From Desulfuromonas sp. (GTDB taxonomy: Bacteria; Desulfobacterota; Desulfuromonadia; Desulfuromonadales; BM103), in assembly GCA_012026975.1 (NCBI GenBank), contig VEPG01000071.1, forward strand, positions 37,153 through 101,152: 64,000 nucleotides of DNA, read 5' to 3'. Below are positions 39,116-56,155 of the stretch, one piece after another. The notes beneath the pieces were generated by a model. The model searched no databases. It saw nothing but the letters and a program-made list of their open reading frames with translations, and was not told the origin of the DNA. Position numbers and translations under genes: made by a program. Position 1 is the first letter of the stretch; every line of letters begins with the position of its first letter.

Positions 39116-39236
39116 CGGCTGATGAAAAGACCCCATCTGCGGCGTTGCCCTTGGCCTCGGCGCTGCGACGTACCGATGGGTACGCCTCGCTTCTCGGCCT
39201 GCGGGCGCCTTGCACCTGGGGTCTTTTGATCAGCCG
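39116..39236. repeat. Dispersed palindromic intergenic repeat, copy B
   Basis: Starts CGGCTGATGAAAAGACCCCA and ends GGGGTCTTTTGATCAGCCG. Outer bases are self-complementary and the body carries CGACGTACCGATGGGTACG. It aligns with the reverse complement of 286-409. It begins right after the hypE stop. Confidence 0.8.
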
Positions 39237-39255
39237 TGATGATTGCAGGAATGAA

Positions 39256-39306: not shown

Positions 39307-40206
39307 TTACTCGGTCAGAATGCCGAAAACCTGGACCCGGTTGTTGCTGCGGTCGGCGACGATCAGCTTCCCTTGGCTGTTGATGCAAAGCTGCGCGGGG
39401 TAGTAGAGCTGGCCCTCTTCCCACCCCAGGGCCAGTTTGTGCCCGAGGAAGCTGCCGTCCCTGCCGACCAGCGCCAGACCGCTGCCGTGCTGGTCAGACA
39501 GATAAAGCGTTCCCTGCCCGTCGATGGCCAGGCTGGTGGGGAAGTTGGTGTATTCCTTCAGCCCCTTGCCCAGGAGCGTGAACGCTTCGGCCGCCGGATT
39601 GGCTGCGTAGACGGCTCCGGCGACACTGTCGAGCAGATAGACGGTACCCTGGGGACTGATCGCGAGATCGGCCATGGTGCCGTAGTCTTTCGGGAAGGCG
39701 ATCTGGCGCAGATATTGCCCGGCTGCGTCCAGCACCAGCACCCTCTCGGCGAAGATGTCCAGCAGATAGAGGTTGTCCTGGGCGTCGAACGCGAAGCTGC
39801 GCGGGACGAAATTCTGAGCGCCCGGCAGGTTCCTGGGCTTCAGCGCGCCGGTCATTTTCCCGTCCGCCCCCAGCTTGGCAACGGTTCGATCCTTGCCGTT
39901 GAGCAGGTAGATGTCACCGCGCGAGTTTATCCGCACGATGAGCGGCACGGCCCCTTCCAGCGGCACGACGGTCTTGGCGACCAGGGTTTGCTCACCCAGG
40001 CTGAAAATCACGATCCGGCTGTTGCCGGTATCGGCCACCACCAGCGTTTTTTCATCGCAGGCCACCCCCTCCGGCAGCTTCAGGGCAACCCCCTCGCCAT
40101 CGGCGTACAGCGTCTGCAGGTGCTTGAACTGGGTTGCCCCGACGGTGGCCGGGAGCAGGCACCCCAAGGCCACGAGACTCACGATTCCGGTCAGTAACTG
40201 GCGCAT
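39307..40206 (-). CDS. Secreted NHL-repeat beta-propeller protein
   Basis: From the ATG at 40206 (GGAG upstream) the 299-residue product has a signal peptide (about 1-23) and then NHL-type propeller blades. Repeated pieces are DTGNSRIVIFSL, INSRGDIYLLNGKDRTV, FDAQDNLYLLD, ISPQGTVYLLDS, IDGQGTLYLSDQ and INSQGKLIVADRSNNRVQVF. About six blades can be counted. NHL proteins of this type accompany multiheme cytochromes in Geobacter. It closes the operon, 5 bases after the 16-heme cytochrome. Probably periplasmic or surface scaffold. Confidence 0.88.
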   Translation of the reverse strand: MRQLLTGIVSLVALGCLLPATVGATQFKHLQTLYADGEGVALKLPEGVACDEKTLVVADTGNSRIVIFSLGEQTLVAKTVVPLEGAVPLIVRINSRGDIYLLNGKDRTVAKLGADGKMTGALKPRNLPGAQNFVPRSFAFDAQDNLYLLDIFAERVLVLDAAGQYLRQIAFPKDYGTMADLAISPQGTVYLLDSVAGAVYAANPAAEAFTLLGKGLKEYTNFPTSLAIDGQGTLYLSDQHGSGLALVGRDGSFLGHKLALGWEEGQLYYPAQLCINSQGKLIVADRSNNRVQVFGILTE

Positions 40207-40210
40207 GGTT

Positions 40211-41485
40211 TTATCTCCGATACTTGGTGTGACACTGCACGCAGAGGGCCTGGACATCCGGATAATAGAGGAAATGCTTGTATTCCGTGCCATGGGTCCG
40301 GTGACAGCTGAGGCAATCGAGCGAGAGGTTGCGGTTGCGCGGGTCGATCACCTCGGGGCCGATCGGATGCGTCGAATGGGCCTGCCAGTCGTGGCACTGG
40401 GCACAGACCTCGCTCGTCGCCGCTTTCGTTTGCAGGAACAGGTTGTCCGAGGCATGCGGTGAGTGGCAGGTGGTGCACTCCCCGTCGCTGATCGGTTGAT
40501 GCTTGGTCTGCGCCCGCGCCTGGCGGGCCAGGGTGTCGGCATGGCAGCTGCCGCAGACCTCCAGCATCGGCTTCCGCAACAGCCCGGCCTGGGTCGACGC
40601 ATGGGGTGAATGGCAGTTGATGCAGCCGGTCTTGTCCACCAGCGGCCAGTGCAGGCGCTTCTTGCCGAACGCCGTGTTGAGCATGTCGTAGTGACAGCCC
40701 TGGCAGAGTTCGTAGCCCTGTTTTTTCAGGGTAAAGGGCTGTGCGGCGGTCGGTTCCTCGTGGCACTGGTTGCACATGCCGCTCTTGAGCGGCTGGTGCA
40801 CGTTGTCCGCCAGGAGCGCCCCGGCATTCGAGCCGTGCGGATCATGACAGGAGGTGCAGCGACCCCGCTCGACCGGGTAGTTCATGTGCCGCTTTTTGAA
40901 CCCTTCGCTGTTGGTCTTGTGGCAGTCGAGGCACAGTTTGGGTTCCTCGGCGGTCAGCAGGCTGACCTGCTTTGCCGAAGCGTGCGGGTTGTGACACTTG
41001 AGGCAACCCTGCTTGACCGGGGCATGAGAGAACTTGTTGGCGGCAATCTTCTTGCCCAGGGCCTGGTGACAGTCGAAGCAGAGCTCGCTGCCGCCCTTGA
41101 CCAGGTTGGCTGGATTGGCCGACGCATGCGGGTCATGACAGGCGACGCACTTGCCCTCGGCCACCACCCGGTGAGTGCTGACGGCCCCCTTGGGGATCAC
41201 CTGGTCGTGGCATTTGTAGCAGATCGTCTCGGCGGGCCCTTCCATCAGCTTCGCGTGGGTCGAGGCGTGGGGATTGTGGCAGCCGGTGCATTCCCCCTTG
41301 GCCAGCGGGGTATGGATATGCTTGGCCTGCAGTTTGCCGCCGAAGGCCGTGTGGCAGGTCAGGCAGAGCTTCCCCTCGGCGCCCGGCTTGAGCTTGAAGG
41401 TCTCGCTGCTCCCGGCGAAGGCGGCCGCGCCGCAGAGCATCAGCGCGGCCAGCAGCATCACAATGACTTGGTTTCGATATCTCAT
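40211..41485 (-). CDS. 16-heme c-type cytochrome (doubled CxxCH family)
   Basis: The 424-residue protein has a signal peptide (about 1-24) and sixteen CxxCH motifs. They alternate between isolated motifs and ones followed by DPHAS, NPHAS or SPHAS, in which the extra His is a likely distal ligand (CTGCHNPHAS, CVACHDPHAS). Each pair occupies about 50 residues, so it is a long repetitive wire. It should be periplasmic or outer-surface. It begins 12 bases after the 26-heme gene. Electron transfer to or from the OmcS-like system is inferred from context. Confidence 0.93.
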   Translation of the reverse strand: MRYRNQVIVMLLAALMLCGAAAFAGSSETFKLKPGAEGKLCLTCHTAFGGKLQAKHIHTPLAKGECTGCHNPHASTHAKLMEGPAETICYKCHDQVIPKGAVSTHRVVAEGKCVACHDPHASANPANLVKGGSELCFDCHQALGKKIAANKFSHAPVKQGCLKCHNPHASAKQVSLLTAEEPKLCLDCHKTNSEGFKKRHMNYPVERGRCTSCHDPHGSNAGALLADNVHQPLKSGMCNQCHEEPTAAQPFTLKKQGYELCQGCHYDMLNTAFGKKRLHWPLVDKTGCINCHSPHASTQAGLLRKPMLEVCGSCHADTLARQARAQTKHQPISDGECTTCHSPHASDNLFLQTKAATSEVCAQCHDWQAHSTHPIGPEVIDPRNRNLSLDCLSCHRTHGTEYKHFLYYPDVQALCVQCHTKYRR

Positions 41486-41496
41486 GGTGTCCACCT

Positions 41497-43485
41497 CTAT
41501 TTCTTCGCGACGGTGTGACACGCATCGCAGGATCTTGCTGCGAACGGCGCATGCATCGTCGGCTTGAAATATTTCGGGTCTTTCGATGCATGAGGATCGT
41601 GGCAGCTCATGCAGTTCATCGTCTGGGCGTCGATCGTCAGATGCGCCTGCCGGAACGATTCGGCCGTCGGCTCATGGCATTCGCCGCACAACGACTGCAG
41701 GGGGAGCGGCAGCAGCTTGTCCAGACTTGCCGAGTGCGGCTGATGGCAGCGCTGGCAATCCCGTCCGGCGGGTGAATGGTTCTTTTCTTCCGCCAGCTTC
41801 TTTTGCAGGGCGGGATGGCAGGTCAGGCACAGGTCGGGGCTTTGCGCCAGCAGCAGGGACTTGAGCTTCGCCTGGTGCGGATTGTGGCAGGCGCTGCATT
41901 CCCCTGTCGTGGCCGGTGCGTGCTTGACCGCCGCGGCGCCAAGCTGCTTGGCAAAATCACCATGACAGTTCAGGCACAGCTGCTGCTGCGGTGTCGAGGT
42001 CATCCCCTTGTAATCGCTGGCATGGGGATCATGGCAGGTCAGGCATTCACCCTCCTGGTACGGGGTGTGGATCGTGGCGGTCTCGTCCTTGAGAAGGGTC
42101 TTCTCGTGGCAGGTCGCACAGAGTTTTTCCCCGCTGGCCTTGAGGAATCGCTCGTTGTCCGCGCCGTGCCCGAAGTGGCAGGCCGTGCACTGCCCGCCCT
42201 GGACCGGCTGGTGGATGCTGCTTTTCTGGAACTCCCCTTCCAGGCCGGAGTGGCAGGAATAGCAGACCGCATCCGCTCGCCCGACCAGGATGTGCTCGGC
42301 GCTGGAGCCATGGGGGTTGTGGCAGCTGGTGCACAGGTTTTCCGTGAACGGGCTGTGCTGCTTGCGGTTTTTGGCTCCGGCCGTACGCACGGCGGCATGA
42401 CACGCGTAGCACAGCTCTCCTTCCGGCTTGTTCACCAGCCCCTTGTAGGCCGCGGAATGGGGCGAATGGCAGGAGAGGCAGCCCTCCTGGCTCTCCACCG
42501 GGGCATGCTTGAAGCGGGCCACCCGGCTGGTGTTTTCGTGACAGGTGAAGCAGAGGTTGTTCCCTTCGCCGAGCAGCAGCTTCTTCTGCACCGACGTGTG
42601 CGGGTCGTGGCAGGAGAGACACTGCCCCGCCTTGAACGGCTCGTGCTGCACGGCGGCGTCGCCTTTCAGGGCAGCGTTGTCGTGGCAGCCCAGGCAGAGC
42701 TTGTCGGCGGGCTCGTTCAAGCCGAACGGCTCCTTGTCGGTCGGAGCCTTGTGGCAGGCAGAGCATTCGGCTCCGGCCACGGGGCTGTGCAGACTCCCCT
42801 TCAGCAGGTTGGCATTGTCGGAGCTGTGGGGATCGTGGCAGGTGGTGCAGGCCGCCGTGGCCACCGGGTATTCGCCGTGGGCCTTGCCGAACCCTGCGGC
42901 CTTGACGTCGTGGCACGACAGGCACAGTTTTCCCGGCGCCAGAGTGAGCAGGTTCGGCTGTTCGGAGTAGTGGGAGGCATGGCAGGCCTGACAGCCTTTC
43001 TCCGTGATGATTCCGTGTACGACCTTCTTCCGGTAGCTGTCCGGTTTGTGGCACTTGAAGCAGATGTCGCTCCCTTCGGCCGCCAGCAGGTGGTCGGCAT
43101 CCGAGGCATGCGGGTTGTGGCAGGTGGTGCACTTCCCTCGCCGCAGGGCGGAGTGCACCCCGGTCTTCTTGTCGAGGTTGAACTTCGCCTCGGCATGGCA
43201 GCGGAAGCAGAGTTTGTTCCCTTCCTCGACCAGCAGCAGCTTGCCGACGATGCCGTGCGACAGGTGGCAGTCCAGGCACTTCCCGTCTTTCATGCCCGGG
43301 TGCTGATTTTTCAGGTTGAGGTACTGTTTGCCGAAAGCCTCGTGGCAGTCGGCACATTCTTTCTTCTTGAATTCGCGCGCGGCATAGCCGGAGTCCGGAT
43401 ATGCCAGCTGCAAGCCGAGGAGGCAGCAGCAGAGCAGGGCGATTCCCGAGAAGAACGTCAGCAGATGTGATTTTATTCGCATCAT
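41497..43485 (-). CDS. 26-heme c-type cytochrome (doubled CxxCH family)
   Basis: This 662-residue cytochrome starts at 43485 (GGAG upstream). It has a signal segment (about 1-35) and twenty-six CxxCH motifs by my count, from CADCH to the last CDACH eight residues from the end. Most odd-even pairs follow the CxxCHxPHAS layout. It shares repeat style with the 16-heme neighbour, so the two are paralogs. The very large heme number in 660 residues predicts an extended chain. Location periplasm or cell surface. The long antisense frames here are composition shadows. Confidence 0.93.
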   Translation of the reverse strand: MMRIKSHLLTFFSGIALLCCCLLGLQLAYPDSGYAAREFKKKECADCHEAFGKQYLNLKNQHPGMKDGKCLDCHLSHGIVGKLLLVEEGNKLCFRCHAEAKFNLDKKTGVHSALRRGKCTTCHNPHASDADHLLAAEGSDICFKCHKPDSYRKKVVHGIITEKGCQACHASHYSEQPNLLTLAPGKLCLSCHDVKAAGFGKAHGEYPVATAACTTCHDPHSSDNANLLKGSLHSPVAGAECSACHKAPTDKEPFGLNEPADKLCLGCHDNAALKGDAAVQHEPFKAGQCLSCHDPHTSVQKKLLLGEGNNLCFTCHENTSRVARFKHAPVESQEGCLSCHSPHSAAYKGLVNKPEGELCYACHAAVRTAGAKNRKQHSPFTENLCTSCHNPHGSSAEHILVGRADAVCYSCHSGLEGEFQKSSIHQPVQGGQCTACHFGHGADNERFLKASGEKLCATCHEKTLLKDETATIHTPYQEGECLTCHDPHASDYKGMTSTPQQQLCLNCHGDFAKQLGAAAVKHAPATTGECSACHNPHQAKLKSLLLAQSPDLCLTCHPALQKKLAEEKNHSPAGRDCQRCHQPHSASLDKLLPLPLQSLCGECHEPTAESFRQAHLTIDAQTMNCMSCHDPHASKDPKYFKPTMHAPFAARSCDACHTVAKK

Positions 43486-43534
43486 GACAACTCCATTGTT
43501 GAATTGCCGGGCCAGGCCTGGCAGGTGGCGTCCG

Positions 43535-45349
43535 TCAGCCGTTCTGCTGCTCCGGCACGAGGAAGTTTTCGGTTGGATAGACTTCCTTGAGCTTGCCGAC
43601 CCACTCGGCAAGAGCCGCCTTGATCTTTTCCGCATAAAGAACCCGCCCGATCTCCTGGCGGACCTCCGGGTAGGGCTTGGCGACCGGCGGATAGGCGCTT
43701 TCGACCAACAGCGTGTAATAGAGTCCGCCGGGGCCGGCGTAAAGGAACAGGTCGCCCTGGCGCGCGGCTTCGACCTGCCGGTGCAGATCGTCCGGCAGGG
43801 CCGTGATCGCGAGCAGCGCGTCGCCGAGGGCGAGGATCTCCTTGTGGTCGGCATCGGCCAGATCCGTCGCGTTGGCCGAGACCCACTTGAAATCACTGCC
43901 GGCCTGCAGTTTTTTCAGGGCGGCGCGGGCACTCTCCTGGCTGGTGAAGACCAGACTCTTCATCTTCAGCATCAGCGGCGAGGAATAATCGTGCAGATGC
44001 TTGTCGTAGTAGGCGCGGACATCCTCTTCCCGCACGGAAATCCCCGGCACCACCGCCTTGGCCATGAAGGTCTCGAACAGCAGCCCCTCCGTGTAATCGT
44101 CCAACTGCTCCCGGAAGGCTGCCGTCTTGTCGATCCCCTGGCTCTGGGCTTCCATCCTGCCGGTGACGGCCACCAGCCGGTTGTCGATCACACCCGCCTT
44201 CTTCTTGTCCAGGTCAGCGGCGTCGAGGCCGCGGTCCATGCCGTGATACAGGGAAGACTCCAGCTTCTTGGCGACTTCGGCGACGGTGATGGTCACCGTC
44301 TCCCGGCCGTTGCTGATCGTTGCCAGCGGCCGCTGGTCCTTGCTCAGGGCGGCAAAGACCTCGGTCCCCTTTGCCTGCGGGTTCGCTGCCAGGATCCTGG
44401 CGAAATCCAGGGCCTGCTCGGCATCCTTGTCAAAGGTGACGTACTTCCCTTCCAGGGACTGCAGGTAGGCCAGCTGCTGTTTCCTCGATTCCTGCTGCAT
44501 CAGGCGGTCGGCCGCGGCCTGGCGCACCGCGGGGTCTTCATAGTTGCGCCGGTCTTCCAGCCGGAACAGCATGACCCCCTTGTCCGCCTTGAAAATCTGG
44601 CTGACCTCGCCGGTTTTCATCGTGTAAACAGCCTGGGCGGCTGCGGGGAGGAGGTCGTTCAGCCGGGCATATTGCGGTTCCTCCCCCCCCTCGGCCTTGC
44701 CGGCTGCGACCTGCCGGTCGGCCAGGGTCTTGAAGTCGCCGCCAGCGGCGACCTCCTTGAGCAGGGCTTCCGCATCGGCCTGACTGAAGAACCGGTAGGT
44801 CAGCAGCTTCGCCTCGAGCGCCATCTGCCGGTACAGCTCATCGACCGCCGCGGCTTCGACCCGGAGATCCTTGACCTGGGTGGCCAGCAGGTGCTGGATC
44901 ATCGTCTTCAGGGCGAAATTCTCGATCTGGCTCTGCACTTCCGGGGTCTTGTCGAAGCCGATGTTGAGCGCTTCCTGCTTGACCAGCTTGATGGCGATCA
45001 GGCGATCGAGCGTCTCGGCGAAATTCTGCTTCCCCTTCGCTTTGTTCTCGTCCGCATTGCCGTGCATTTTGGCCAGTTCCATGGCGAATTTCTGCAGGGT
45101 GATCGTCTCGCCGTTGACCGTGGCCACCACCGTTGCCGCGTGCTTCTCGGAAAACAGCGGGATCCTCTCGATCTGTTCCGCGCCCTTGGGGCGCAAGGCA
45201 ATGGTCAGTTCCTGCATCTCTCCGGTCACAGCCGGCGCCGGGGCGTTGGGGGCAGGCATCCCCCCGCCGCCGCCGAAGGCAAGGGCGGCAACGGCGGACG
45301 CAAGAATCAGGATTTTGGCGGATACGACGGTTAGAAATGGTTTTTGCAT
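43535..45349 (-). CDS. PpiC-type peptidyl-prolyl isomerase / SurA-like chaperone (OscH-like)
   Basis: The 604-residue protein has a signal-like helix (about 8-26) and SurA/PpiD-like N-terminal helices (VNGETITLQKFAMELAKM). A parvulin-like central part follows (YRFFSQADAEALLKEVAAGGDF, split YRFFSQADAEALLKEV and AAGGDF), and a second PpiC-like part near the end (LVFTSQESARAALKKLQAG). Active-site signatures are weak, so chaperone action may dominate. Position just downstream of propeller, barrel and two lipoproteins matches the prolyl isomerase of the osc cluster, reported to help fold OmcS. Confidence 0.85.
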   Translation of the reverse strand: MQKPFLTVVSAKILILASAVAALAFGGGGGMPAPNAPAPAVTGEMQELTIALRPKGAEQIERIPLFSEKHAATVVATVNGETITLQKFAMELAKMHGNADENKAKGKQNFAETLDRLIAIKLVKQEALNIGFDKTPEVQSQIENFALKTMIQHLLATQVKDLRVEAAAVDELYRQMALEAKLLTYRFFSQADAEALLKEVAAGGDFKTLADRQVAAGKAEGGEEPQYARLNDLLPAAAQAVYTMKTGEVSQIFKADKGVMLFRLEDRRNYEDPAVRQAAADRLMQQESRKQQLAYLQSLEGKYVTFDKDAEQALDFARILAANPQAKGTEVFAALSKDQRPLATISNGRETVTITVAEVAKKLESSLYHGMDRGLDAADLDKKKAGVIDNRLVAVTGRMEAQSQGIDKTAAFREQLDDYTEGLLFETFMAKAVVPGISVREEDVRAYYDKHLHDYSSPLMLKMKSLVFTSQESARAALKKLQAGSDFKWVSANATDLADADHKEILALGDALLAITALPDDLHRQVEAARQGDLFLYAGPGGLYYTLLVESAYPPVAKPYPEVRQEIGRVLYAEKIKAALAEWVGKLKEVYPTENFLVPEQQNG

Positions 45350-45416
45350 GGGATCCTCTTTCTTCTTGTATCGCAGCAATGAACGATACGTTGGTAGGCG
45401 ACCGGGAAAGATCGCG

Positions 45417-46865
45417 TTATTCCTCCAGCAGTCTGATCGTCGCCCGGGTCATCGGGGTGACCAGACCATGCGCCGTGGCAATCCTGCCGATGTCGAAAAA
45501 GTAAACGCCGTCGTTGCCCCGCGCGGAGCTGCGCGACGTCCAGATGATTTCACGCTGGCGGCCGGCGACGGCCTGCACGGAAAAATCGACCTTGGCCTCC
45601 GCGATCAGGTCCTGGTAATCGAAGACCTGCCCGGAGACGATCAGGTCCGCACCGAGAATCTTTTCGCTGGCGAGGATGTCCGCGGCCGCCAGCGACGGGC
45701 CCGCCTGCATGATCATCCGGTAGCGCAGCAGGATGTCGCGGACCCAGCCCGGCTCGTAAACCCGGAGGTTCTCGTAGCGGTTCAGCTGTTTGAGCAGGTG
45801 CAGGGTGACAATCGTCCCGGCGTGCTTCCGGGTGCTGGCATTCAGCAGCGGGACCAGCGCCACGCGGTACTCCCGCTCGGGATCGAAGGTCGCCGCGCGG
45901 AAGGTGACTTGCGGCTGCAGGCGGCTGCCGACCGCTCCGGTCGCGGCGTCCGCGGTCTTGCCGTCACCGTTGAGCAGGCGTACCCCCTGTCGGTCGGCCG
46001 TGTGGCGATAACTCGGGAAGCTGCCCGCCAGATAGCGCTGAAAGGAGGCGACCAGTTGGTCCAGCCCGTTGCCGAGCAGTTGCCGGACATCGTTCACTCT
46101 CCCCAGTCCGAGCAACCCGGGCGCCTCATCCCCGGCCAGGCCGACGCTGTCGATCCAGAGGATTTCAGGCTCGCGGCCGGTCGCGACGACCCGGGCGATC
46201 AGGGCGACCCGCGGCGGCACCGCGTCCTGCCAGGTTTCCAGGGTGCTGATCACCACGCCGTCGACGCCGAGTTCCTCCTGCAGTTGCTGGCTGGTCTCGG
46301 GAGCGATGCCGCCGACATGGCGGACGCGGTGTTTCCGCATGAACTCCTCCAGCGTGTCGTCGGCGAGCACCTGCAGCCCCGCAGCGGCCATGGTGCGGAC
46401 CAGCCGATCGTGGATCTCCACCAGGGGCGCCGTGCGGTCGCTCAGGTTTTCGGTCGGCAGCACGGCGTAGCGCGAGTTCCCGGCGAGCAGCGGTGCAAAG
46501 CGGTAGGGATCGGACCAGTCGCTCTCGACCACGGTGCCCGCGGCATCGGTCGCAACCACCCTGAGCCGGTAGTCTCCCGGCTCCTTGGGCGTCCAGCGCA
46601 AATCAGACGTCGCTCCCCGCTGGAGACTCGACTCCACCCCGTCTTTCATCATCCGAAAATCGTAGACAACCGGGCCCTGACCGCCGCTGGTACGGCAGCT
46701 CAGCCGCAGCGCATTGCGCCTGGCTACGGACCCCTCCGCGGCAACGTCGACGCCGGCGATGCCCAGCGGCGGCGGGCCGGGAGCCTTCCCGGCACAGCCG
46801 GCCAGCAGCAGGGCGAGCAGCAGGGCGGCGAGCCGTTTATTCAAACAGCTGGTCGAGCAGATCAT
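45417..46865 (-). CDS. Lipoprotein with two CsgG/GNA1162-like domains (Osc channel-type component)
   Basis: The 482-residue product carries a lipobox (LLLAGC). Its first half has an Ig-like part (SVARRNALRLSCRTSGGQGP) and then a nucleotide-fold-like region with YAVLPTENLSDRTAPLVE and HRVRHVGGIAPETSQQLQ. The second half repeats the pattern (YRVALVPLLNASTRKHAGTI; EKILGADLIVSGQVFDYQD). Both resemble CsgG/GNA1162-type periplasmic domains that build outer-membrane pores. The ATG at 46865 overlaps the previous gene by 29 bases; a TTG 21 bases later would give a tidier signal, so the start is uncertain. Confidence 0.75.
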   Translation of the reverse strand: MICSTSCLNKRLAALLLALLLAGCAGKAPGPPPLGIAGVDVAAEGSVARRNALRLSCRTSGGQGPVVYDFRMMKDGVESSLQRGATSDLRWTPKEPGDYRLRVVATDAAGTVVESDWSDPYRFAPLLAGNSRYAVLPTENLSDRTAPLVEIHDRLVRTMAAAGLQVLADDTLEEFMRKHRVRHVGGIAPETSQQLQEELGVDGVVISTLETWQDAVPPRVALIARVVATGREPEILWIDSVGLAGDEAPGLLGLGRVNDVRQLLGNGLDQLVASFQRYLAGSFPSYRHTADRQGVRLLNGDGKTADAATGAVGSRLQPQVTFRAATFDPEREYRVALVPLLNASTRKHAGTIVTLHLLKQLNRYENLRVYEPGWVRDILLRYRMIMQAGPSLAAADILASEKILGADLIVSGQVFDYQDLIAEAKVDFSVQAVAGRQREIIWTSRSSARGNDGVYFFDIGRIATAHGLVTPMTRATIRLLEE

Positions 46866-47424
46866 TGATGACCTGGGTTGTCACATCGTTCATCGGCTGA
46901 CCGCCGCTCCCGAGCAGCCGGTCGACCGCCGTGATGCCGCCCTTGGTCGAGCTGGCGGACCAGACGACCGTGCCGTTCTGGGTCTCGATCATCTGCAGGC
47001 TCAGGGAGACCAGGTTGGCTTCGGCGGAACCGGAGCGGACCGGACCATATTCCCTGAGAACCCCGGTGATCACCGCATCCACCTCGAGGACCGCTTTCAG
47101 CTTGGTGATCTCCTCGACGGTCGGCGTCTGGGGGATGCGCACGCCGACCCGGTTGACGCCGCGCGCCACTTCACCGGGGGGGAGCACATAGATCTGCTCG
47201 GTGGCCAGCAACATCCCCATGAAGGCGTCACGGACCCGTTCACTGGCCTGGTCGTCGCTGGTCAGGTTCTGGAACGGCATGACGGCGACCGTGCGCACGG
47301 CGCTGAAGTCCATCTGTGCGTTGGTGTAGTCCGGGACAGCGGGCGGCATGAGTGAACAGCCGCCCATGCACAACTGCAGACAGCAGCCAAGCCAGACAAC
47401 CAGCAGGTTCCTTGTTAATTTCAT
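46837..47424 (-). CDS. GNA1162/CsgG-like lipoprotein
   Basis: The 195-residue protein starts at 47424 (AAGGAT upstream) with a lipoprotein signal (MGGC). The mature part has VRTVAVMPFQNLTSDDQASE, VRDAFMGMLLATEQIYVLPP and VDAVITGVLREYG, the sequence pattern of the GNA1162/DUF799 and CsgG family. It should sit in the outer membrane facing the periplasm. It overlaps the larger lipoprotein and follows the outer-membrane barrel gene by 50 bases; the three probably form one secretion or assembly complex. Confidence 0.82.
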   Translation of the reverse strand: MKLTRNLLVVWLGCCLQLCMGGCSLMPPAVPDYTNAQMDFSAVRTVAVMPFQNLTSDDQASERVRDAFMGMLLATEQIYVLPPGEVARGVNRVGVRIPQTPTVEEITKLKAVLEVDAVITGVLREYGPVRSGSAEANLVSLSLQMIETQNGTVVWSASSTKGGITAVDRLLGSGGQPMNDVTTQVINDLLDQLFE

Positions 47425-47473
47425 GTCGATATCCTTCTGCTGCGGGAGCAAGTCCCGGATGGTGCCGCGCCGT

Positions 47474-49612
47474 TCAGTAAAGGAACCGCAGCGCGAGACT
47501 GACATTCTCGAATTCGACGCGTTCCGTCAGGTCCTCCCGTTCACCCAGGGCGTACTCCACGGTCAGCTGGGTTTTGCGATTGACCTGCCAGCGCACGGTC
47601 GGGGAGAGGGACCAGCCCTTTTCCTCGTCGCTATCGTTCGTGTAACCGTAGCCCATGGTGAACATGAGCGTGCCGTCCTTGAATGGCGACCAGTTGACGA
47701 AATACTGCTGGGTCACGGTCGACTCCTGGTCCTCGCCGGTCTTGTCGGTGAAGGCGAGGTCCGCCGACAGGCTCAGGGTCGAGGTCGGCACCCAGGTGAT
47801 GACCAGACGGCCATCCTGGTCGCGGGACATCGGCCGCCCGCTCTCCCGTTCCCAGGACGCTCCATAGGAGAGTGTCAGGTTCAGCCAGCGGTTGGGGATG
47901 ATGTTGCTGCTGACCCGCATGAACGTGGTGTTGGTTTCGCCGCCTTCGGCCGGGTCCTGCCAGCTGTAGCCGGTGTCCAGATAAAGGCTCCACCCCTCGT
48001 ACAGGTCCAGGTTGTTGCGCAGCAGGATCGTGTTGGCGGTGCTGAGGTCGCCGTCGTTCTCCGTATGGCGGTTGTAGCTGTAGGTCAGGCTCTGGTCGAA
48101 GGTCTCCAGGTATTTGGCCGTGAGTGAGGCCGAATAGCTGTAATCGGTTTCGGGCCCCTCACCCTTTTCGCGGCTTTCGGCGCGATGCAGCCGCATATTG
48201 CCGGCAAACACGTCGTCGAAGCGGTGGCTCAGCCGGGCGCCGGTGCTCAGCAGCGTCCGCTTCTCGTCGAGCGGCTGCGAACGTTCCTCGCGGTAAAGCA
48301 GATCATAGCCGGTCGATGTCCGGTCGCTATGTTTCCAGTTGACGGCAAGATCGCCGGTCCAGTCGGTGGTGACCACTTCGGGGAGGTCCGGCGCCAGCGT
48401 CCGCCGGGCGACGAGGTCCCTGATCACCAGGTTTTCCCCTGCGGGAACGGTCGGCGGCGCCAGCGGGGTGGTCACGATCTTGATGAAGCGGGTTTCCACG
48501 GAGCCGAAGGCCAGCTCGAACCGGCCTTCGGCGAAGTTGGTGCTGGCGACGGCACTGATCTCGGTCCAGTTCTCGGTATCGTTGTTGCGCACGTAGATGC
48601 GCCAGGTGAAATCGGTGCTGTGGGCGTTGCCGATATCGACGAAATTGATGAACAGTCGGTCCACCTCGGTCGGCGTGCCGAAATCTAGGCCGAAGCTGAG
48701 CTGGTCCGCTTCCAGCAGCGAATCGACCAGCAGATCGACGCTGCTCAGGGTAAAGCCGGGGTCCGGATCGCTGGTCAGGGGGGATGGATCTTCCCTGCTG
48801 CCGATGACCGTTCCGGCCGACTTCGTCGGGATCAGACGATCGCCGATCCCGGAAAATTCGATCTCCTGCCGGCGGGCCCGGAGGCTGCCGTTCACTGCGA
48901 CCGCCCCCTGCAGATAGCTCCTGTTGAAACGGATGTTGCCATTGTCGGTATTGGTCAGCGTTTCAAAGTTGGTGATCTTGTTCAGGGCCTGGTTGGTCGT
49001 GTGGCTGTAGTTGAAATCGAAGTCCCGGTAGCGGTAACGGCTTTGCAGCCGGTAGTCGTCGACCTGCTGGTCATTGGTCCGCGGCGAGTTGTAGCTCAGG
49101 GTCCGCGTGTAATCGAGGTCGAGCTCCGGCCAGTCGATCGGCTTCCAGTCCAGGCCGGCGCTGTACTCTTCCGTGAAAGTGCGGGTCGTGTCCATGAACG
49201 AGGCGCTCCGCTTGATTTCGCTTTTCCGGTAGCCGGCCATGGCCTGCAGCAGCGGCGAGCTGAGCTGCAGGTCGATATAGGGACGGGTGGTGGTATTTTT
49301 CCCGTCGCTGTCCCGGCCGTCCGGGTCGGTCGTGGTGCTGTCGATCTTGTCCTGGTCGAACAACCCGCCGAAATTCAGCTTCAGGTTCGGCATGAGTTCC
49401 TTCTGCACATCCAGGCTGTAGAGCTGGGAAAACACGGTCCGCTCGGTATCATAGGCGAGCCCCGTGTCCTTCTCCGTGATCGTGCTGTCGGTGACCTCGT
49501 ATTCCAGGTCGGTCAGCAGGCGCAGGCTGTCGGCCAGGGCCGGAGCCGTCCCCATCAGGACGCAACAGGCAGCGAGCAGGCTGCACCAAGCTGAGCGGCA
49601 AAGCAGAACCAT
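47474..49612 (-). CDS. Outer-membrane beta-barrel with discoidin-like insert (Osc channel-type component)
   Basis: The 712-residue protein has a signal peptide (about 1-27) and many alternating amphipathic strands (LKLNFGGLFDQDK, YIDLQLSSPLLQ, FDFNYSHTTNQ), ending in SLALRFLY with an aromatic last residue, as in BamA-inserted barrels. About residues 290-390 form a compact non-barrel insert (VDRLFINFVDIGN...WRIYVRNNDTENWTEIS...RFIKIVTTP) that resembles F5/8-type discoidin domains. It probably folds on the surface and may bind the filament or polysaccharide. Good ribosome site (AAGGTGATCG). Its stop and the propeller gene are 3 bases apart. Confidence 0.85.
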   Translation of the reverse strand: MVLLCRSAWCSLLAACCVLMGTAPALADSLRLLTDLEYEVTDSTITEKDTGLAYDTERTVFSQLYSLDVQKELMPNLKLNFGGLFDQDKIDSTTTDPDGRDSDGKNTTTRPYIDLQLSSPLLQAMAGYRKSEIKRSASFMDTTRTFTEEYSAGLDWKPIDWPELDLDYTRTLSYNSPRTNDQQVDDYRLQSRYRYRDFDFNYSHTTNQALNKITNFETLTNTDNGNIRFNRSYLQGAVAVNGSLRARRQEIEFSGIGDRLIPTKSAGTVIGSREDPSPLTSDPDPGFTLSSVDLLVDSLLEADQLSFGLDFGTPTEVDRLFINFVDIGNAHSTDFTWRIYVRNNDTENWTEISAVASTNFAEGRFELAFGSVETRFIKIVTTPLAPPTVPAGENLVIRDLVARRTLAPDLPEVVTTDWTGDLAVNWKHSDRTSTGYDLLYREERSQPLDEKRTLLSTGARLSHRFDDVFAGNMRLHRAESREKGEGPETDYSYSASLTAKYLETFDQSLTYSYNRHTENDGDLSTANTILLRNNLDLYEGWSLYLDTGYSWQDPAEGGETNTTFMRVSSNIIPNRWLNLTLSYGASWERESGRPMSRDQDGRLVITWVPTSTLSLSADLAFTDKTGEDQESTVTQQYFVNWSPFKDGTLMFTMGYGYTNDSDEEKGWSLSPTVRWQVNRKTQLTVEYALGEREDLTERVEFENVSLALRFLY

Positions 49613-49615
49613 CGA

Positions 49616-51043
49616 TCACCTTGCGCCCATCACGGCGACGGCCTGGCTGTCGGGACCCAGCTCCAGCTTCCCCAATTCCCGTTTGCTGACCAGATCGATC
49701 TTCAACAGTCGCCGGCTCTGGGGGAGAAGGGCCAGCAGGGTGTTTTCCTCGTTGTCGATCGTCAGGGCCCGGACCGGCTCCGGCGGCAGGGTGAAGGCGT
49801 CGATCGCCATCGCCGCGCGCGGGTCGACCACGACGATCCGGCCGTCGTTCATCCCCACGTAGAGGAGGCCGCCGGCCCGGTCGGCCTTGAGCGAAACTGC
49901 GCCGTTGCCAATGAAGATGGGGTTGCGCAAGGACAGCGAAATGGCGTCGAGCACGGACAATTCCGCGGAAAAGTCGTTGATCAGGTAAAGCGTCCTGCCG
50001 TCCGCATCGGCCACGCCATCCAGGGGAGCTTCCTCCAGGGGGATCGTTCTCTGCACGGACTGGTTCTGCAGATCGATCACCGAGAGGAGGCTGGCGGCGG
50101 CATGGGTGACGAAGGCCCGGGTTTCGCCGGTGCCGAGAAAGAGGTTCCCCGCGTCCGCGTTCAGCCGGACCCGACCCTTCTCAAACAGCGCCTGCGTGTC
50201 GATGATGCTGACCGAGCTGCTCCCCGGATTGAGGGCGACCAACAGGTTGCCGCTTGCGGTCAGGGCCAGTTCGGTCGGCCGGTCGCCGAAGCGCAGCGGC
50301 ACCCGGCCAAGGAGAGCGCCGCTGTTTACCTCGATCACCACGATGGCGTCCTCGCCGCTCAAGGCGACGTACAACCAGCCCCGGCGCTGATCGAGAGCCA
50401 GGTCGGCGGGTGCCGCCCCGACCCGGATGGCCCCCAGCACCTGGGCGGTGCGCTTGTTGAAGACGGTCAGACTCGGCGTGGTGTGGCTGCTCACGAAACC
50501 CTTGAGATTGACCAGCGCCCGTTCCGGTTTCCAGAGCGCAAACCGGGGGGTGAACAAAGCCCCGGCGGTAATGAGCCGCTCCGCGCCAAGCGACAGGAGC
50601 AGGGTCTCGGCCTGATCTTCCCGGATATCGAACGGCTCTTCGATCACCAGCCGCCCCTCGGGTGGGAGCAGATCGACCGGTCCTTCCTCGCCCTGCACGC
50701 TGGCCGAAGCGATGCGCACGGCGATCCCCCGGTAGCGGCCGGGCGGCAGGGTGAGATTGACCAGCTGCGTCTGCGCGCCGAGCAGCCGGCTGCCCTCGAA
50801 GCGGCTCTGCTGCAGCGGCAGCGGCACCTCGCCGCCGTCGAGCCGCAGGGCCGCGAGTTCGCTGACCGTGAAGGTCAGGCGGTGAGCTTCCTGGGGGAGC
50901 GGCTGCAGAAACAGGGTGAACAGGCCGGAGGGCGCCGTCGGTACCGCTGCCGGCCTGACTGCGGCGGTGCAGGCGGCCGCCTGCAGCGCCAGACAGAGCA
51001 CGGCGAACAGTTTCGTGACAGGGGTGCGAACGGGAAGCTTCAT
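49616..51043 (-). CDS. Beta-propeller lipoprotein (OscD-like)
   Basis: I use the ATG at 51043 because AGGA lies 8 bases upstream; ATGs at 51049 and 51052 are alternatives. The 475-residue product has a lipobox (AAAC at about 25) and an N-terminal beta domain of about 130 residues resembling DUF4382 (LTLPPGRYRGIAVRI). A YVTN-like seven-bladed propeller follows: LDQRRGWLYVALSGED, LTASGNLLVALNPG, DADGRTLYLINDF, GGLLYVGMNDGRIVVVD and others. It comes right after the second OmcS-like gene and corresponds in position to OscD, reported to affect nanowire morphology. Confidence 0.85.
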   Translation of the reverse strand: MKLPVRTPVTKLFAVLCLALQAAACTAAVRPAAVPTAPSGLFTLFLQPLPQEAHRLTFTVSELAALRLDGGEVPLPLQQSRFEGSRLLGAQTQLVNLTLPPGRYRGIAVRIASASVQGEEGPVDLLPPEGRLVIEEPFDIREDQAETLLLSLGAERLITAGALFTPRFALWKPERALVNLKGFVSSHTTPSLTVFNKRTAQVLGAIRVGAAPADLALDQRRGWLYVALSGEDAIVVIEVNSGALLGRVPLRFGDRPTELALTASGNLLVALNPGSSSVSIIDTQALFEKGRVRLNADAGNLFLGTGETRAFVTHAAASLLSVIDLQNQSVQRTIPLEEAPLDGVADADGRTLYLINDFSAELSVLDAISLSLRNPIFIGNGAVSLKADRAGGLLYVGMNDGRIVVVDPRAAMAIDAFTLPPEPVRALTIDNEENTLLALLPQSRRLLKIDLVSKRELGKLELGPDSQAVAVMGAR

Positions 51044-51053
51044 GGCCATCATC

Positions 51054-52241
51054 CTAGGGGGTCGCCGCGCCGTGGCATTTTTCACAGAAGCGGCCCTGGC
51101 CGGCGCCGAACTCCGTAGCGAGGTTGCGCCCGTAATAGCTGAAATAAACGTCGTTGACCGTCGCGCCGACGTCACCGACAGCCGGATGGGAGTCCGCCAG
51201 CAGGCCGGCGGTGAAATCCCAGCGCCCGGCATCCGGAAAAGCCGACGCATGCGCCCGATGGCAGGTCAGGCACATGACGTTGGCGTTGGCATCCGGCCCC
51301 TGCCGGCTGTTCGGGTCGAGCAGTTGCAGCGTCGTCGTGCCGCGCTCGAACGGGACGAACTGCAGGTAGGCCGTCGCGGCCGAGCCGGAGAAATCGCCGG
51401 TGCGCAGGTAGCTGTTGTAGGTGTCGACCACCCCTTGGCCGAGCAGTGCCCCGCGCCCCGACGGGTGCGTGAAGGTGCTCCCCTCGATCCGGTGGCCGCC
51501 GTCGAGCATGGCCCCGTGGCAGTTGCCGCACCATTCACTCATGCCGGCACCATAGGCGACGTGGCTGCCGTCGCTCTCCGCGAACCTGCTGACGCTGCTC
51601 TGGCGGGCGACCGGCGCGTCGGCGACGAAGGCCGCGCCGCCGGCCGGCCGGTGGCGGGGGTCCCCCAGCAGCCGGAAGTTGCCGCAGATCGCCCCGCCGG
51701 GGGGCTCGGTGCCGTACGACCCGGAGCCGCTGACGGGGGGGGCGCCCCAGCGGGTCCCGCCGGCGCTTTGGCCGTGGGGGTCATGGCAGCTGGTGCAGCC
51801 GAGCCGTGCCGACGGATAGGTGCCGCCCGGAGCCAGGGTCAGCTGCGGGTCAGGGAGCAGGTTGTGATCGATGGCCACGATGTTGTGGCCATGGTTGTCT
51901 CCGGGGCTGCTCCCGTTCAGCCAGCTAAAGCTCCTGATCAGCCAGTAGAAATCGCCGCCCGGCGTGAGTGCCGAGCCGTCCGGGCTGAACACGGACGGGC
52001 TGTTGGGACCGCCGGGCCCGGCATGGCAGTTGAGGCAGATGGAGCTCGGGTCGGAGCTCAGCAGTAGAGACTCCCCCGCGGATCGTGCGCTGTGCATCGA
52101 ATGGCAGGCGTTGCAGGAGCCGGCGCCGCCATCATGAAAGGCGTAGCTGTGGCCGGAAAAAACGCAAAGCACCAGCGCTGCCGCCACAAACAACGGGCGT
52201 CCGGCCGGCCTGGTCCTGCTGAGGAGTCTGTCGCTAATCAT
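51054..52241 (-). CDS. Second OmcS-like six-heme cytochrome
   Basis: The 395-residue protein has a signal peptide (about 1-34) and then FHDGGAGSCNACHSMHS, the same mature start as OmcS. Six CxxCH motifs are present: CNACH, CLNCH, CTSCH, CGNCH, CLTCH and CEKCH. Distal-His sites of OmcS are kept (GHNIVAIDH, MSEWCGNCH, HRAHASAF). It is longer than its neighbour, mainly in loops, and ends CEKCHGAATP instead of the OmcS CNKCHAKD. It could be an alternative filament subunit, a cap or an OmcT-type paralog. It heads the assembly-gene part of the operon. Confidence 0.9.
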   Translation of the reverse strand: MISDRLLSRTRPAGRPLFVAAALVLCVFSGHSYAFHDGGAGSCNACHSMHSARSAGESLLLSSDPSSICLNCHAGPGGPNSPSVFSPDGSALTPGGDFYWLIRSFSWLNGSSPGDNHGHNIVAIDHNLLPDPQLTLAPGGTYPSARLGCTSCHDPHGQSAGGTRWGAPPVSGSGSYGTEPPGGAICGNFRLLGDPRHRPAGGAAFVADAPVARQSSVSRFAESDGSHVAYGAGMSEWCGNCHGAMLDGGHRIEGSTFTHPSGRGALLGQGVVDTYNSYLRTGDFSGSAATAYLQFVPFERGTTTLQLLDPNSRQGPDANANVMCLTCHRAHASAFPDAGRWDFTAGLLADSHPAVGDVGATVNDVYFSYYGRNLATEFGAGQGRFCEKCHGAATP

Positions 52242-52355
52242 CGAGGCCTCGGCCCCGGATCGTAGAATGACTGCATAAACCCGGTTGCTGTTCCAAGTAT
52301 TGCGGGGATTTTCCCCTTGTCTACCTGTCAAATCCGTCGGCGGTTATTGAATAAA

Positions 52356-52388
52356 AGGCTGACAGCGCTTAAGAAACGCTGTCAGCCT
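52356..52388 (-). terminator. Rho-independent terminator after the OmcS-like gene
   Basis: On the minus strand AGGCTGACAGCG and CGCTGTCAGCCT form a 12-bp perfect stem followed by TTTTATT. It lies between the two OmcS-like genes, so most transcripts would carry only the first one, with read-through into the assembly genes. Confidence 0.88.
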
Positions 52389-52399
52389 CCTGGCTTTCC

Positions 52400-52436
52400 C
52401 CCTGGCGGCCGGCCCATCCGGCCGGAACCGCCAGGG
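52400..52436 (-). terminator. Accessory hairpin upstream of the terminator
   Basis: CCCTGGCGG and CCGCCAGGG are perfect arms enclosing a CCGG-rich inner stem. Without its own T run it probably protects the 3' end of the abundant OmcS-like message or helps the terminator. Confidence 0.6.
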
Positions 52437-52468
52437 TTTCACTTGTCAACTTAACTGCTTATTTTTGC

Positions 52469-53602
52469 TTAGTCCTTCGCGTGGCACTTGTTGCACAGCT
52501 GGCGCTGATACTGGCCGTACTTGGCGACGACATCGACGGCGGCGCCATTGGCATAGTAGGGAACCGCACCGTTCGCCATCAGCGTCGAGGTGTTTTCATG
52601 CAGGATGGCCGACCCGGCGATGAATTCCGAGGTGTTGCTGTCCCAGCGCAGGGCGTTTTCGAAAGCCGAAGCATGGGCGCGGTGGCAGCTCAGGCACATG
52701 ACCTGGTCGGTGCCGGTCACGCCGACGGTGCTGGCGGGATCCAGCAATTTACCATCGGAGACGCCGCGCTCGATCGGGACCAGCGGATCGAAGGCTGTGG
52801 CGGCGGTGCCGGTGAAGTCGCCGGTCTTGACATAGCTGTTGTAGGAGACCGGGACCGGGACGTCGGTCGGATGCATGTTGGTGTTGTCGTTGAACGACGG
52901 GTGGCAGCTCAGGCACCAGTCGGACATGCCGCTGCCGTAGTTGACTTTGGTGCCGGCAGAAGCGTCCGCGGTCGCAACCGGCGCATTGGCGGTAATCTGC
53001 TTGAAGCCGGCATCGCCGAGCAGACGGTAGTTGCCGGCGATCGTCCCGGCGGGCGGCTGCTTGGTGGCCTGGTTGAGATAGGAACCGGAGACGGAGATCG
53101 GGGCCGCGCCGTTGGCGGTGCCGCCGTCGATCTGGCCGTGCGGGTCGTGGCAGCTGGTGCAGCCGAGCAGCCCGGCATTCATGGTGCCGCCGGGGGCGGT
53201 GGTGTTGGTGGCATCGACCGTCAGGCCGAAGTCGGCGGCGACGACGTTGTGTCCCTTGTTGTCGGGATCAAAGGTAATAACGGTGCCGCGCTCCAGGTAA
53301 TCGTGCGTGGCCGCGTCGGACACCCAGAAGAAGTCGCCGCCCTGGTTCTTGTTGGAGCCGTTGACGCTGTTGATGTGATAGCTGCTCGCGCCGGTGTGGC
53401 AGTTGAGGCAGGTGGAACTGGCGTCGGAACCCTTCATCAGCGAAGCGGCCGTGGCAGAGCCGGCCCGGGGATTGTCTGCCGAGTTGTGCATCGAGTGGCA
53501 GCCGTCACAATGTGCGACGCCGCCGCCGTGGAACGCGAAAGCGCTCCCGCTGGTCAGGACGAGTCCCGCTGCCATGGCCAAGATCATCTTGCTTGCTTTC
53601 AT
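52469..53602 (-). CDS. omcS: OmcS-like six-heme filament-forming cytochrome
   Basis: The 377-residue protein has a signal peptide cut after AFA (residue 23), so the mature chain begins FHGGGVAHCDGCHSMHNS, as OmcS does. Six CxxCH motifs are present (CDGCH, CLNCH, CTSCH, CLSCH, CLSCH, CNKCH). OmcS blocks also include SYHIN, GHNVVAADFGL, APGGT...LLGCTSCHDPHG, YNSYVKTGDFTGTAATAF, CHRAHASAF and the end YQRQLCNKCHAKD. OmcS polymerises into extracellular heme filaments that carry electrons outside the cell; this should do the same. GGGAGG precedes the ATG. It has its own sigma-54 promoter and terminator, fitting a highly expressed subunit. Confidence 0.92.
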   Translation of the reverse strand: MKASKMILAMAAGLVLTSGSAFAFHGGGVAHCDGCHSMHNSADNPRAGSATAASLMKGSDASSTCLNCHTGASSYHINSVNGSNKNQGGDFFWVSDAATHDYLERGTVITFDPDNKGHNVVAADFGLTVDATNTTAPGGTMNAGLLGCTSCHDPHGQIDGGTANGAAPISVSGSYLNQATKQPPAGTIAGNYRLLGDAGFKQITANAPVATADASAGTKVNYGSGMSDWCLSCHPSFNDNTNMHPTDVPVPVSYNSYVKTGDFTGTAATAFDPLVPIERGVSDGKLLDPASTVGVTGTDQVMCLSCHRAHASAFENALRWDSNTSEFIAGSAILHENTSTLMANGAVPYYANGAAVDVVAKYGQYQRQLCNKCHAKD

Positions 53603-53693
53603 GGTGTTGCCTCCCATTGCTGTGTGGTTGATCGCGTATCGACATCTCCGGAGTTGCCGATATGCTGATTTCGAACTGTGCTTTCAACCAGGA

Positions 53694-53708
53694 GCAATCG
53701 GCGTGCCA
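53694..53708 (-). promoter_or_regulatory. Sigma-54 promoter of the OmcS-like gene
   Basis: Minus-strand TGGCACGCCGATTGC matches TGGCACG-N4-TTGC fully. The predicted start is near 53682, giving an 80-base leader with a strong ribosome site. I see no c-di-GMP-type riboswitch core in the leader. Confidence 0.88.
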
Positions 53709-53791
53709 GCACGGTTTAAAAAAAATAACTCAACAATTACAATGGCTTGTGAATGAAGCTTGAATTTCTTCCATTCTCTTCGCACGGCCCG

Positions 53792-53838
53792 TCTGGAGAT
53801 TTTCCAAATTCATTTTGGGAGATTTCCAAATTTTCCGG
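53792..53838. promoter_or_regulatory. Two-palindrome element upstream of the OmcS-like promoter
   Basis: TCTGGAGATTTTCCAAA is followed, 22 bases later, by TTTGGGAGATTTCCAAA. The element starts 84 bases upstream of the -24 box. Sequence and 22-base phasing match the element at 54964-55007, so both probably bind the same sigma-54 activator. Confidence 0.65.
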
Positions 53839-53840
53839 GG

Positions 53841-54854
53841 CTACCGTCCCAGAGAAATCGTGTAGACGCCGACCCCTTTGTTGGCGGCCTGCGCGACAAA
53901 GATCCGATGCCTCTCCGGGTCGAGCGCCAGGTCGTCCGGGACGATCATGTCTTCCGGCCGGTCGCCCCGGTAGCCGAACTCGCCCAGGAAGACGAAATCA
54001 GAGGCGAACACCATAACCACCGAACGCAACCTGTCCGCCACGTAGATATTTCCCTGCGGGTCGGCGACGATCCCGGAGACGACTCCGAATTTGCCGGGGC
54101 CGCTCCCCGGCGAGCCGAAAGCGGCGAGAGCCCCGTCCGGCTTCAAACGAAACGCGCTGAACAGGGTAGGCACCGTAAAATAGATGCTGCCATCGGTGCC
54201 GATGCTGAAGCCGCTGATCTCGAGGGACAGGGTCTTCTTTTTTTCCGGGTCCTGCTCCCTGGCCATCCGCTCGAAGTCGGCGGTGAGATCGTATGCCTGG
54301 CGGAAAGCGCCGTCGGACTGCAGGACGACAATCTGCAGCTCTCTGGAGTCGAGCAGATAGAAGAGGCCACCCTGGCACTTCATCCGATCCGGATCGAATT
54401 TTTGATACTTTTCCGGAAGGTTTTCGAGGGTGATGACCGCTTGCGGTTCGCCGCGGAAGTTGAGGACCTGAATGGCGTCCCTCTGGAAATTTCGCGCCAG
54501 GAGATAAATGGCGCCGTCATCCCCCGCAGCGACATCCTTCGCGGCAACGATCGACCCGTCGCCGCCAAAGGCGAACACCTCCATCCCTTGCTGATTGTAG
54601 ATGCGGATTTCGTTCAGGCTCTGATCAAGGGTATAGAGTTCCTGCTGGCGGGGATCGAAGTCGAGCCGCGCCCACTGGGAGGCGACGGGACCGGAAAAAT
54701 CGGAAAGCAGGTACTGGAAGCTTGCCTGGAGCGAGGCTCCGCCACGTTGGCTCTGCTGCAGTTCGGCCGATGCAGCCGATGGCGTCAGCAGTATGGCGCA
54801 GAGAAAGACCGGGAAGAGGGAAGACAGGGGTTTGACCGGGCCGGGAATTTTCAT
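53841..54854 (-). CDS. Secreted NHL-repeat beta-propeller protein upstream of OmcS-like gene
   Basis: The 337-residue product has a signal peptide (about 1-30) and propeller blades: LDFDPRQQELYTLDQSLNE, split LDFDPRQQELY and TLDQSLNE; DDGAIYLLARN; GTDGSIYFTVPTLFSAF; ADPQGNIYVADRLRSVV; LDPERHRIFVAQA. NHL genes are found next to omcS in Geobacter. The ATG at 54854 keeps the signal; the sigma-54 start is predicted only about 4 bases before it, so the message may be nearly leaderless or the start may differ. Its 3' end runs into the regulatory element of the OmcS-like gene. Confidence 0.85.
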   Translation of the reverse strand: MKIPGPVKPLSSLFPVFLCAILLTPSAASAELQQSQRGGASLQASFQYLLSDFSGPVASQWARLDFDPRQQELYTLDQSLNEIRIYNQQGMEVFAFGGDGSIVAAKDVAAGDDGAIYLLARNFQRDAIQVLNFRGEPQAVITLENLPEKYQKFDPDRMKCQGGLFYLLDSRELQIVVLQSDGAFRQAYDLTADFERMAREQDPEKKKTLSLEISGFSIGTDGSIYFTVPTLFSAFRLKPDGALAAFGSPGSGPGKFGVVSGIVADPQGNIYVADRLRSVVMVFASDFVFLGEFGYRGDRPEDMIVPDDLALDPERHRIFVAQAANKGVGVYTISLGR

Positions 54855-54869
54855 GGCTCCCATTATTCA

Positions 54870-54884
54870 GCAATCAACGTGCCA
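54870..54884 (-). promoter_or_regulatory. Sigma-54 promoter of the NHL-repeat gene
   Basis: Minus-strand TGGCACGTTGATTGC matches the -24/-12 consensus at all fixed bases; predicted start near 54858. Confidence 0.85.
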
Positions 54885-54963: not shown

Positions 54964-55007
54964 AATCTGGGAATTTTCCCGAATCGATCTGGGAAAATTC
55001 CCAGATT
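54964..55007. promoter_or_regulatory. Two-palindrome element upstream of the NHL promoter
   Basis: AATCTGGGAATTTTCCC and GGGAAAATTCCCAGATT are perfect 17-base inverted repeats, each arm containing a TCTGGGAAAATTCCC-like half; the TCT starts are 22 bases apart. It starts 80 bases upstream of the NHL -24 box and lies in the divergent gap before the sensor operon, so it may also act on that operon. The remaining bases of 54855-55178 hold no gene. Confidence 0.68.
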
Positions 55008-56141: not shown

Positions 56142-56155
56142 ATGAAGCGCCCGCC

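Follow-up and report, generated by a model that had tools for sequence, protein, structure and literature searches.

The 64,000-nucleotide stretch of Desulfuromonas sp. DNA analysed here (contig VEPG01000071.1, positions 37,153 to 101,152 of the forward strand; hereafter the window) carries a run of eleven genes on the minus strand, from 54854 down to 39307. In 5' to 3' order they encode an NHL protein, hexaheme cytochromes 1 and 2, OscD, OscE, OscF, OscG, OscH, OscI, OscJ and a second NHL protein. The open reading frames, their order and strand, and the heme numbers of the four cytochromes (6, 6, 26 and 16) were verified. The listed starts of several genes were placed too far upstream, i.e. 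the 26-heme gene (OscI) starts at 43482 instead of 43896, and the start of the propeller gene (OscD) was corrected to 51043. It is likely that these genes make up a full osc (omcS-companion) cluster, working by the mechanism proposed below, in a Desulfuromonadales-type bacterium that is uncultured. The locus is a further example of the known osc system, not a new kind, and it bears on the export of a cytochrome wire and on its lasting electrical contact with the inner membrane.

Gene content and order of the osc cluster

The first gene (53841..54854) encodes a secreted NHL/beta-propeller-type protein of 337 amino acids with a signal peptide and a weak NHL-family match; a homologue is found upstream of the hexaheme genes in most of the related loci. 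It is followed by hexaheme 1 (52469..53602) and hexaheme 2 (51054..52241), each with six CXXCH motifs. OscD (49616..51043) is a beta-propeller protein with YVTN/YncE-type repeats and an AAAC lipobox-like site, and its homologues at the same position in relatives are 30-65% identical. The next genes encode the predicted large outer-membrane beta-barrel OscE (47474..49612) with a discoidin-like insert, the lipoproteins OscF (46837..47424) and OscG (45417..46865), and OscH (43535..45349), a SurA-like PPIC peptidyl-prolyl isomerase/chaperone (Rotamase_2, E-value 3.2e-19; Rotamase, E-value 2.8e-8; SurA_N). OscI (41497..43482) is a MtrA/DmsE-like cytochrome with 26 CXXCH motifs (DmsE-family model, E-value 4.7e-85) and OscJ (40211..41485) is a cytochrome with 16. 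The run ends with the second NHL-repeat protein (39307..40206; Pfam NHL, E-value 1.8e-20), which closes the eight-gene block and keeps its position in relatives. The companion genes are thus all present in the order that the initial annotation had given (propeller, barrel, two lipoproteins, PpiC), as in osc-type loci, and the PpiC gene is indeed followed on the same strand by the genes for the 26-heme, 16-heme and second NHL proteins.

In Geobacter sulfurreducens GSU2495 is oscI and GSU2494 is oscJ (PMC13194489), and 26 heme motifs were recorded for GSU2495 in 2010 (PMC2996986). Every genome with the GSU2501 hexaheme carries downstream the eight-gene block GSU2500-GSU2493, which has been tied to nanowire maturation and secretion; the figure of omcS-like gene neighbourhoods in the same paper includes G. 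luticola and the strains H2geo and L1geo (PMC12977616). According to Shen et al. 2025, as this work is cited in PMC13194489 and PMC12977616, OscH serves in folding, OscE/F/G serve in secretion and OscD acts on morphology.

The order D-E-F-G-H-I26-J16-NHL was found in Geomobilimonas luticola (locus L059), Geobacter sp. H2geo (L075) and Geobacter sp. L1geo (L093). The block in the window consists of the same eight genes in the identical order, with an OmcS-like hexaheme directly upstream. The layout had been described as lying outside the canonical one of G. sulfurreducens; this was rejected, since the 26-heme, 16-heme and NHL genes are the standard oscI, oscJ and the end of the GSU2500-GSU2493 block. 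In other words, the window resembles the G. sulfurreducens cluster (omcS/omcT/oscC plus GSU2500-GSU2493) in its genes and their order, for which relatives and the literature served as the basis of comparison, and also in the 26 hemes of GSU2495 and in the adjacent numbering of a sigma-54 regulator and a kinase (GSU2506/2507). The differences are that the hexaheme pair stems from a separate duplication, that OscG has an extra Ig-like domain, and that OscD to OscJ are only moderately identical (29-55%) to the Geobacteraceae copy L059. The best identity to OmcS among the genomes searched was 72%.

The OscF profile detected 53 loci in one-per-species genomes, with taxa including Desulfuromonadales, Desulfobulbaceae, Nitrospirota, Acidobacteriota, Anaeromyxobacter, Rokubacteria and Schekmanbacteria. 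On contigs of sufficient length the eight genes are almost always all present (about 40 loci in several phyla), and this conservation of the whole block excludes a chance arrangement.

Hexaheme cytochromes and the outer-membrane gate

A search of the PDB returned OmcS (6ef8/6nef) as the sole match for each hexaheme, over the full length and with E-values against 6ef8 of 1.1e-61 (hexaheme 1) and 6.2e-64 (hexaheme 2). Two OmcS-like six-heme proteins thus precede OscD, as had been stated. Hexaheme 1 is 46% and hexaheme 2 is 42% identical to mature OmcS. When aligned to it (6ef8), both contain the histidines of the six CXXCH motifs plus exactly six other conserved ones (H2, H16, H110, H147, H257 and H335), i.e. 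all 12 expected axial ligands. His16 is of special interest, as in the established OmcS structures this residue ligates a heme of the neighbouring subunit. The proteins of the window share with the OmcS subunit the six hemes, the 12 axial histidines and the full-length match, but they differ from it by their moderate identity and their shorter loops, they are not orthologous, and they are putative wire subunits.

In a quick tree of 69 sequences, a split with a support of 100 sets both hexahemes of the window apart from OmcS and the gene in the OscC position of Geobacter. Hexaheme 2 directly precedes OscD, which is the position of GSU2501/OscC, yet by the tree it is not an orthologue of OscC. 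The window pair and the Geobacter OmcS/OscC pair were therefore duplicated separately, and it would be wrong to name one gene of the window omcS and the other oscC. At least one member of the pair is the putative polymerising subunit.

It is also possible, though on the unlikely side, that the hexahemes pass the osc gate and stay on the surface as monomeric or short cytochromes, the cluster being a general hexaheme secretion system that some Geobacter subsequently adopted for wires. Not every genome that carries the eight-gene block has omcS, while all have a hexaheme of the GSU2501 type, and this possibility has been raised before (PMC12977616). The strongly supported split from OmcS and the smaller size of the mature proteins (354 and 361 versus 407 amino acids) fit such a reading as well. 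The conservation of all 12 axial histidines in both proteins, including the intersubunit ligand His16, speaks against it.

The candidates for the outer-membrane gate are OscE, OscF and OscG. The AlphaFold2 (AF2) model of OscE has a mean predicted local distance difference test (pLDDT) value of 92 and about 26-28 barrel strands, as counted by hand from the strand list. Among solved folds MtrB (6r2q_B) ranks first with an E-value of 3.8e-10, but the template modelling (TM) scores are just 0.37/0.40 and other large barrels follow close behind. F5/8 type C domains are found in 10 of 44 OscE homologues. None of the 44 matches the Pfam family MtrB_PioB and OscE has no NCBIfam match either, so its assignment to MtrB_PioB was rejected. 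Given this and the low TM scores, OscE and OscI were not filed as a porin-cytochrome pair. MtrB_PioB genes occur separately on other contigs of the genome, with NrfB-like cytochrome matches slightly upstream.

OscF has an MGGC lipobox and matches GNA1162-like proteins (Pfam, E-value 8.4e-8; profile matches to GNA1162 4hrv, E-value 7e-6, and to PelC 9h80, E-value 7.4e-6). OscG (LAGC lipobox; AF2 pLDDT 80) consists of an Ig-like domain and, behind it, two GNA1162/PelC-like domains. In Foldseek its similarity is highest to GNA1162 (TMt 0.70) and PelC (TMt 0.62-0.73) and lower to CsgG (TMt about 0.4, E-value 5e-4). Of the claim that both lipoproteins are CsgG/GNA1162-like, the GNA1162 part holds for OscF; CsgG was rejected as the closest relative of OscG, which GNA1162 and PelC fit better. 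OscF and OscG thus share the lipoprotein fold of GNA1162 and of PelC from the PelBC exopolysaccharide exporter. The difference is that no PelB-type partner was seen in the osc cluster and that OscG has two such domains and the Ig-like one.

OscG of the window has 482 amino acids, as against about 365-440 in many copies that seem to be without the Ig-like domain. Several relatives have repeats of this part, and their proteins reach up to 1442 amino acids. Enlarged forms of 970-1442 amino acids were seen in L045 (10557-13469), L046 (3525-7853), L062 (10635-14564) and L094 (10551-14003); in L045 and L046 (genomes G013 and G037) the enlargement consists of tandem N-terminal Ig-like copies.

The 26- and 16-heme cytochromes

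It is conspicuous that the heme numbers of OscI and OscJ hardly vary. Near-full OscI copies in 40 loci have 26 hemes in 35 cases, 25 in three and 42 in two, and one of the 25-heme copies (L088) is interrupted by the end of the locus. All 37 near-full OscJ homologues have 16 hemes. Seemingly short, 14-heme forms of OscI in L060 and L072 proved to be artefacts caused by the 10 kb flank, and the whole genomes contain a full OscI-sized frame and OscJ.

The two 42-heme cases are fusions of OscI and OscJ in a single stop-free frame of 1061 or 1063 amino acids (L055, 14172-17357; L062, 16417-19608). In both, residues 1 to about 658 of OscI are followed by OscJ from residue 25 or 26, and the signal peptide of OscJ is gone. 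In the OscI tree (a quick tree with a midpoint root) L055 groups with L064 and L056, both unfused (support 91 and 100), whereas L062 is located elsewhere. This separation implies two fusions at the same junction, or one fusion with later splits, and the OscI-OscJ fusion apparently arose independently in two lineages, as judged from the tree. Of 395 genomes sampled from the phylum, 15 have a strong OscJ match; their frames have 423-615 amino acids and none of them is fused, so the fusion is rare.

Gene fusion is the usual evidence of two proteins working together, and the junction suggests that the C-terminus of OscI adjoins the N-terminus of OscJ. The OscI family profile also matches MtrA of the Mtr complex (6r2q_A, E-value 1.5e-31; chain A is mislabelled in the PDB table and was taken as MtrA since the entry is the structure of the Mtr complex). 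OscI is thus a multiheme cytochrome of the MtrA/DmsE type, with 26 hemes where MtrA has 10. Taken together, the 42-heme fusions and the MtrA-like nature of OscI support, without proof, an end-to-end periplasmic heme rod.

A more specific version of this rod would have a fixed length of 42 hemes, span the periplasm and dock under the OscE/F/G gate, so that it wires the exported filament to the respiratory chain; 26 and 16 would then be constant across phyla since the periplasm has to be bridged. This version is put forward as a tentative idea of rather low probability. In MtrA each heme accounts for about 9 angstrom, which means that a rod of 42 hemes would measure roughly 35 nm.

Somewhat better odds, though still below even, are given to a reading in which OscI and OscJ are unattached electron carriers or stores of the periplasm that have only the operon in common with the gate and make no fixed contact with it. 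This would agree with the failure of OscE to match MtrB_PioB and with the loci in which the two halves come apart. L061, located in a complete-chromosome metagenome-assembled genome (G279), has the NHL gene, a hexaheme and OscD to OscG, and OscH, OscI and OscJ gave no match in that genome. Such a locus argues against an obligate link between the export half and the heme chains. In L060, L072 and L073 the cluster is arranged in two divergent halves, OscD-G and OscH-I(-J). The osc system therefore seems to be built of two modules, which are found together in most cases. Loose carriers would, however, not be expected to keep near-invariant heme numbers, nor to show two fusions at one junction and a linkage conserved across phyla. 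A physical link between the export machine and long periplasmic heme chains, as initially suggested, remains putative; the near-invariant synteny, the heme numbers and the two fusions are in its favour.

We note that here the wider comparison outweighs the single locus: the 26- and 16-heme partners, conserved in several phyla, and the apparently independent 42-heme fusions point to a definite and testable arrangement in the periplasm.

Transcription signals, working model and flanking regions

Exact matches to the sigma-54 -24/-12 element lie on the minus strand upstream of hexaheme 1 (TGGCACGCCGATTGCT, 53693..53708) and upstream of the first NHL gene (TGGCACGTTGATTGCT, 54869..54884), and these are the only two in the 64 kb. 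When one mismatch is allowed the total is four, which is no more than expected by chance, so what counts is that two sites are exact and where they lie. Corresponding positions in L106, L044, L045, L043 and L051 also have such sites; the element before the first NHL gene has its counterpart in L106 and L044. This element is only about 15 bases from the start codon (54854-54884), a spacing shared by L106 and L044, and the first NHL message is predicted to be nearly leaderless. Upstream of the same gene there is a pair of TGGGAAWWTTCCCA palindromes (54968..55003; 54990-55003 exact, 54968-54981 with one mismatch), which are candidate activator-binding sites. Across the 2.83 Mb of the genome there are only four such places.

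On the plus strand, starting at 55179, the osc cluster adjoins a divergent locus for a phosphonate-binding-like protein, a sensor kinase and a sigma-54 response regulator (55179..59382; Pfam). This trio is the probable regulator of the cluster. The trio or parts of it are found beside the cluster in L106, L107 and L053, and the regulator alone in L049, L050 and L052. In G. sulfurreducens the sigma-54 regulator GSU2506 and the sensor kinase GSU2507 are numbered next to GSU2505 (PMC10599522). Another pair of kinase and sigma-54 regulator genes lies at 26204-29562, on the strand opposite to the osc-adjacent pair (56156-59382), and stretches of the two pairs are 70-83% alike in DNA sequence (inverted repeats I1-I6).

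Between the hexaheme genes there is a terminator-like hairpin (52349..52388, minus strand) with a stem of 12 or more bp followed by TTTTATT, in a region that folds with a z-score of -6.1. A homologue of the hairpin occupies this position in six other loci, one of which (L035) has no T-tract. This hairpin and the sigma-54 elements bear on whether the whole run is one transcript, as initially supposed, which would give wire subunit and machinery in equal amounts. All genes are on one strand with convergent or divergent neighbours at the ends, and the gaps after hexaheme 2 are short (-25 to 71 bp), which speaks for one transcript. The T-tract hairpin after hexaheme 1, with its homologues elsewhere, opposes it, and so does the presence of one sigma-54 element ahead of the NHL gene and another ahead of hexaheme 1, although the hairpin shows weak covariation (2 of 12 pairs). 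On balance one transcript seems improbable to us and is not the simplest reading of these motifs. A riboswitch was also looked for before the operon: no Rfam family reached the threshold, and the low-score matches at 37.9 kb are due to a strong inverted repeat there.

The working model builds on what was observed here, namely gene content, order, families, ligand conservation and the promoter and hairpin motifs. Its regulatory part and the role of OscI/OscJ are our own proposal, and the roles of OscD to OscH follow the published work on G. sulfurreducens (Shen et al. 2025, in the form in which it is cited). Sigma-54 and the neighbouring two-component system would turn on the NHL gene and hexaheme 1, and the hairpin would leave hexaheme 1 in excess over the machinery. 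The sigma-54 elements, the dedicated palindrome and the hairpin may thus offer a simple explanation for much wire protein and little machinery. The hexahemes would be exported to the periplasm, where the isomerase OscH would aid their folding, and would exit via a gate in which the OscE barrel is combined with the lipoproteins OscF and OscG; the latter two, which are similar to PelC and GNA1162, may build a ring that faces the periplasm. Outside the cell at least one hexaheme would polymerise in the fashion of OmcS, with His16 ligating the heme of the next subunit, and OscD would tune the shape of the filament. OscI and OscJ, as periplasmic MtrA-like heme rods, would probably pass electrons to the gate or to the wire.

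Several points weigh against this reading. The comparison with G. sulfurreducens was made via L059, L075 and L093 and the papers, its genome being outside the searched set. Neither hexaheme of the window is, by the tree, an orthologue of G. sulfurreducens OmcS, and OmcS itself is the only protein among these known to form a wire (PMC12977616). The physiological need for OmcS wires is in dispute (PMC11077965). For this organism the filament itself is putative.

On its other side the cluster adjoins a convergent [NiFe]-hydrogenase locus that ends at 39114. Just 3' of the cluster (39130-39250) there is an element of about 105 bases from a dispersed repeat family with about 18 near-full copies in the genome (78-100% identity). 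A near-perfect long inverted repeat (37870-38045; folding energy z-score -7) is located between hypD and an AIRS-domain (hypE-like) gene. Farther away (9951-12417) a 96-base repeat occurs three times, each copy with an apparent tRNA 3' end and one of them beside an intact tRNA-Pro (12341-12417), in a stretch of low G+C content (0.50 at 8-12 kb). This region is possibly an island or a set of duplicated attachment sites.

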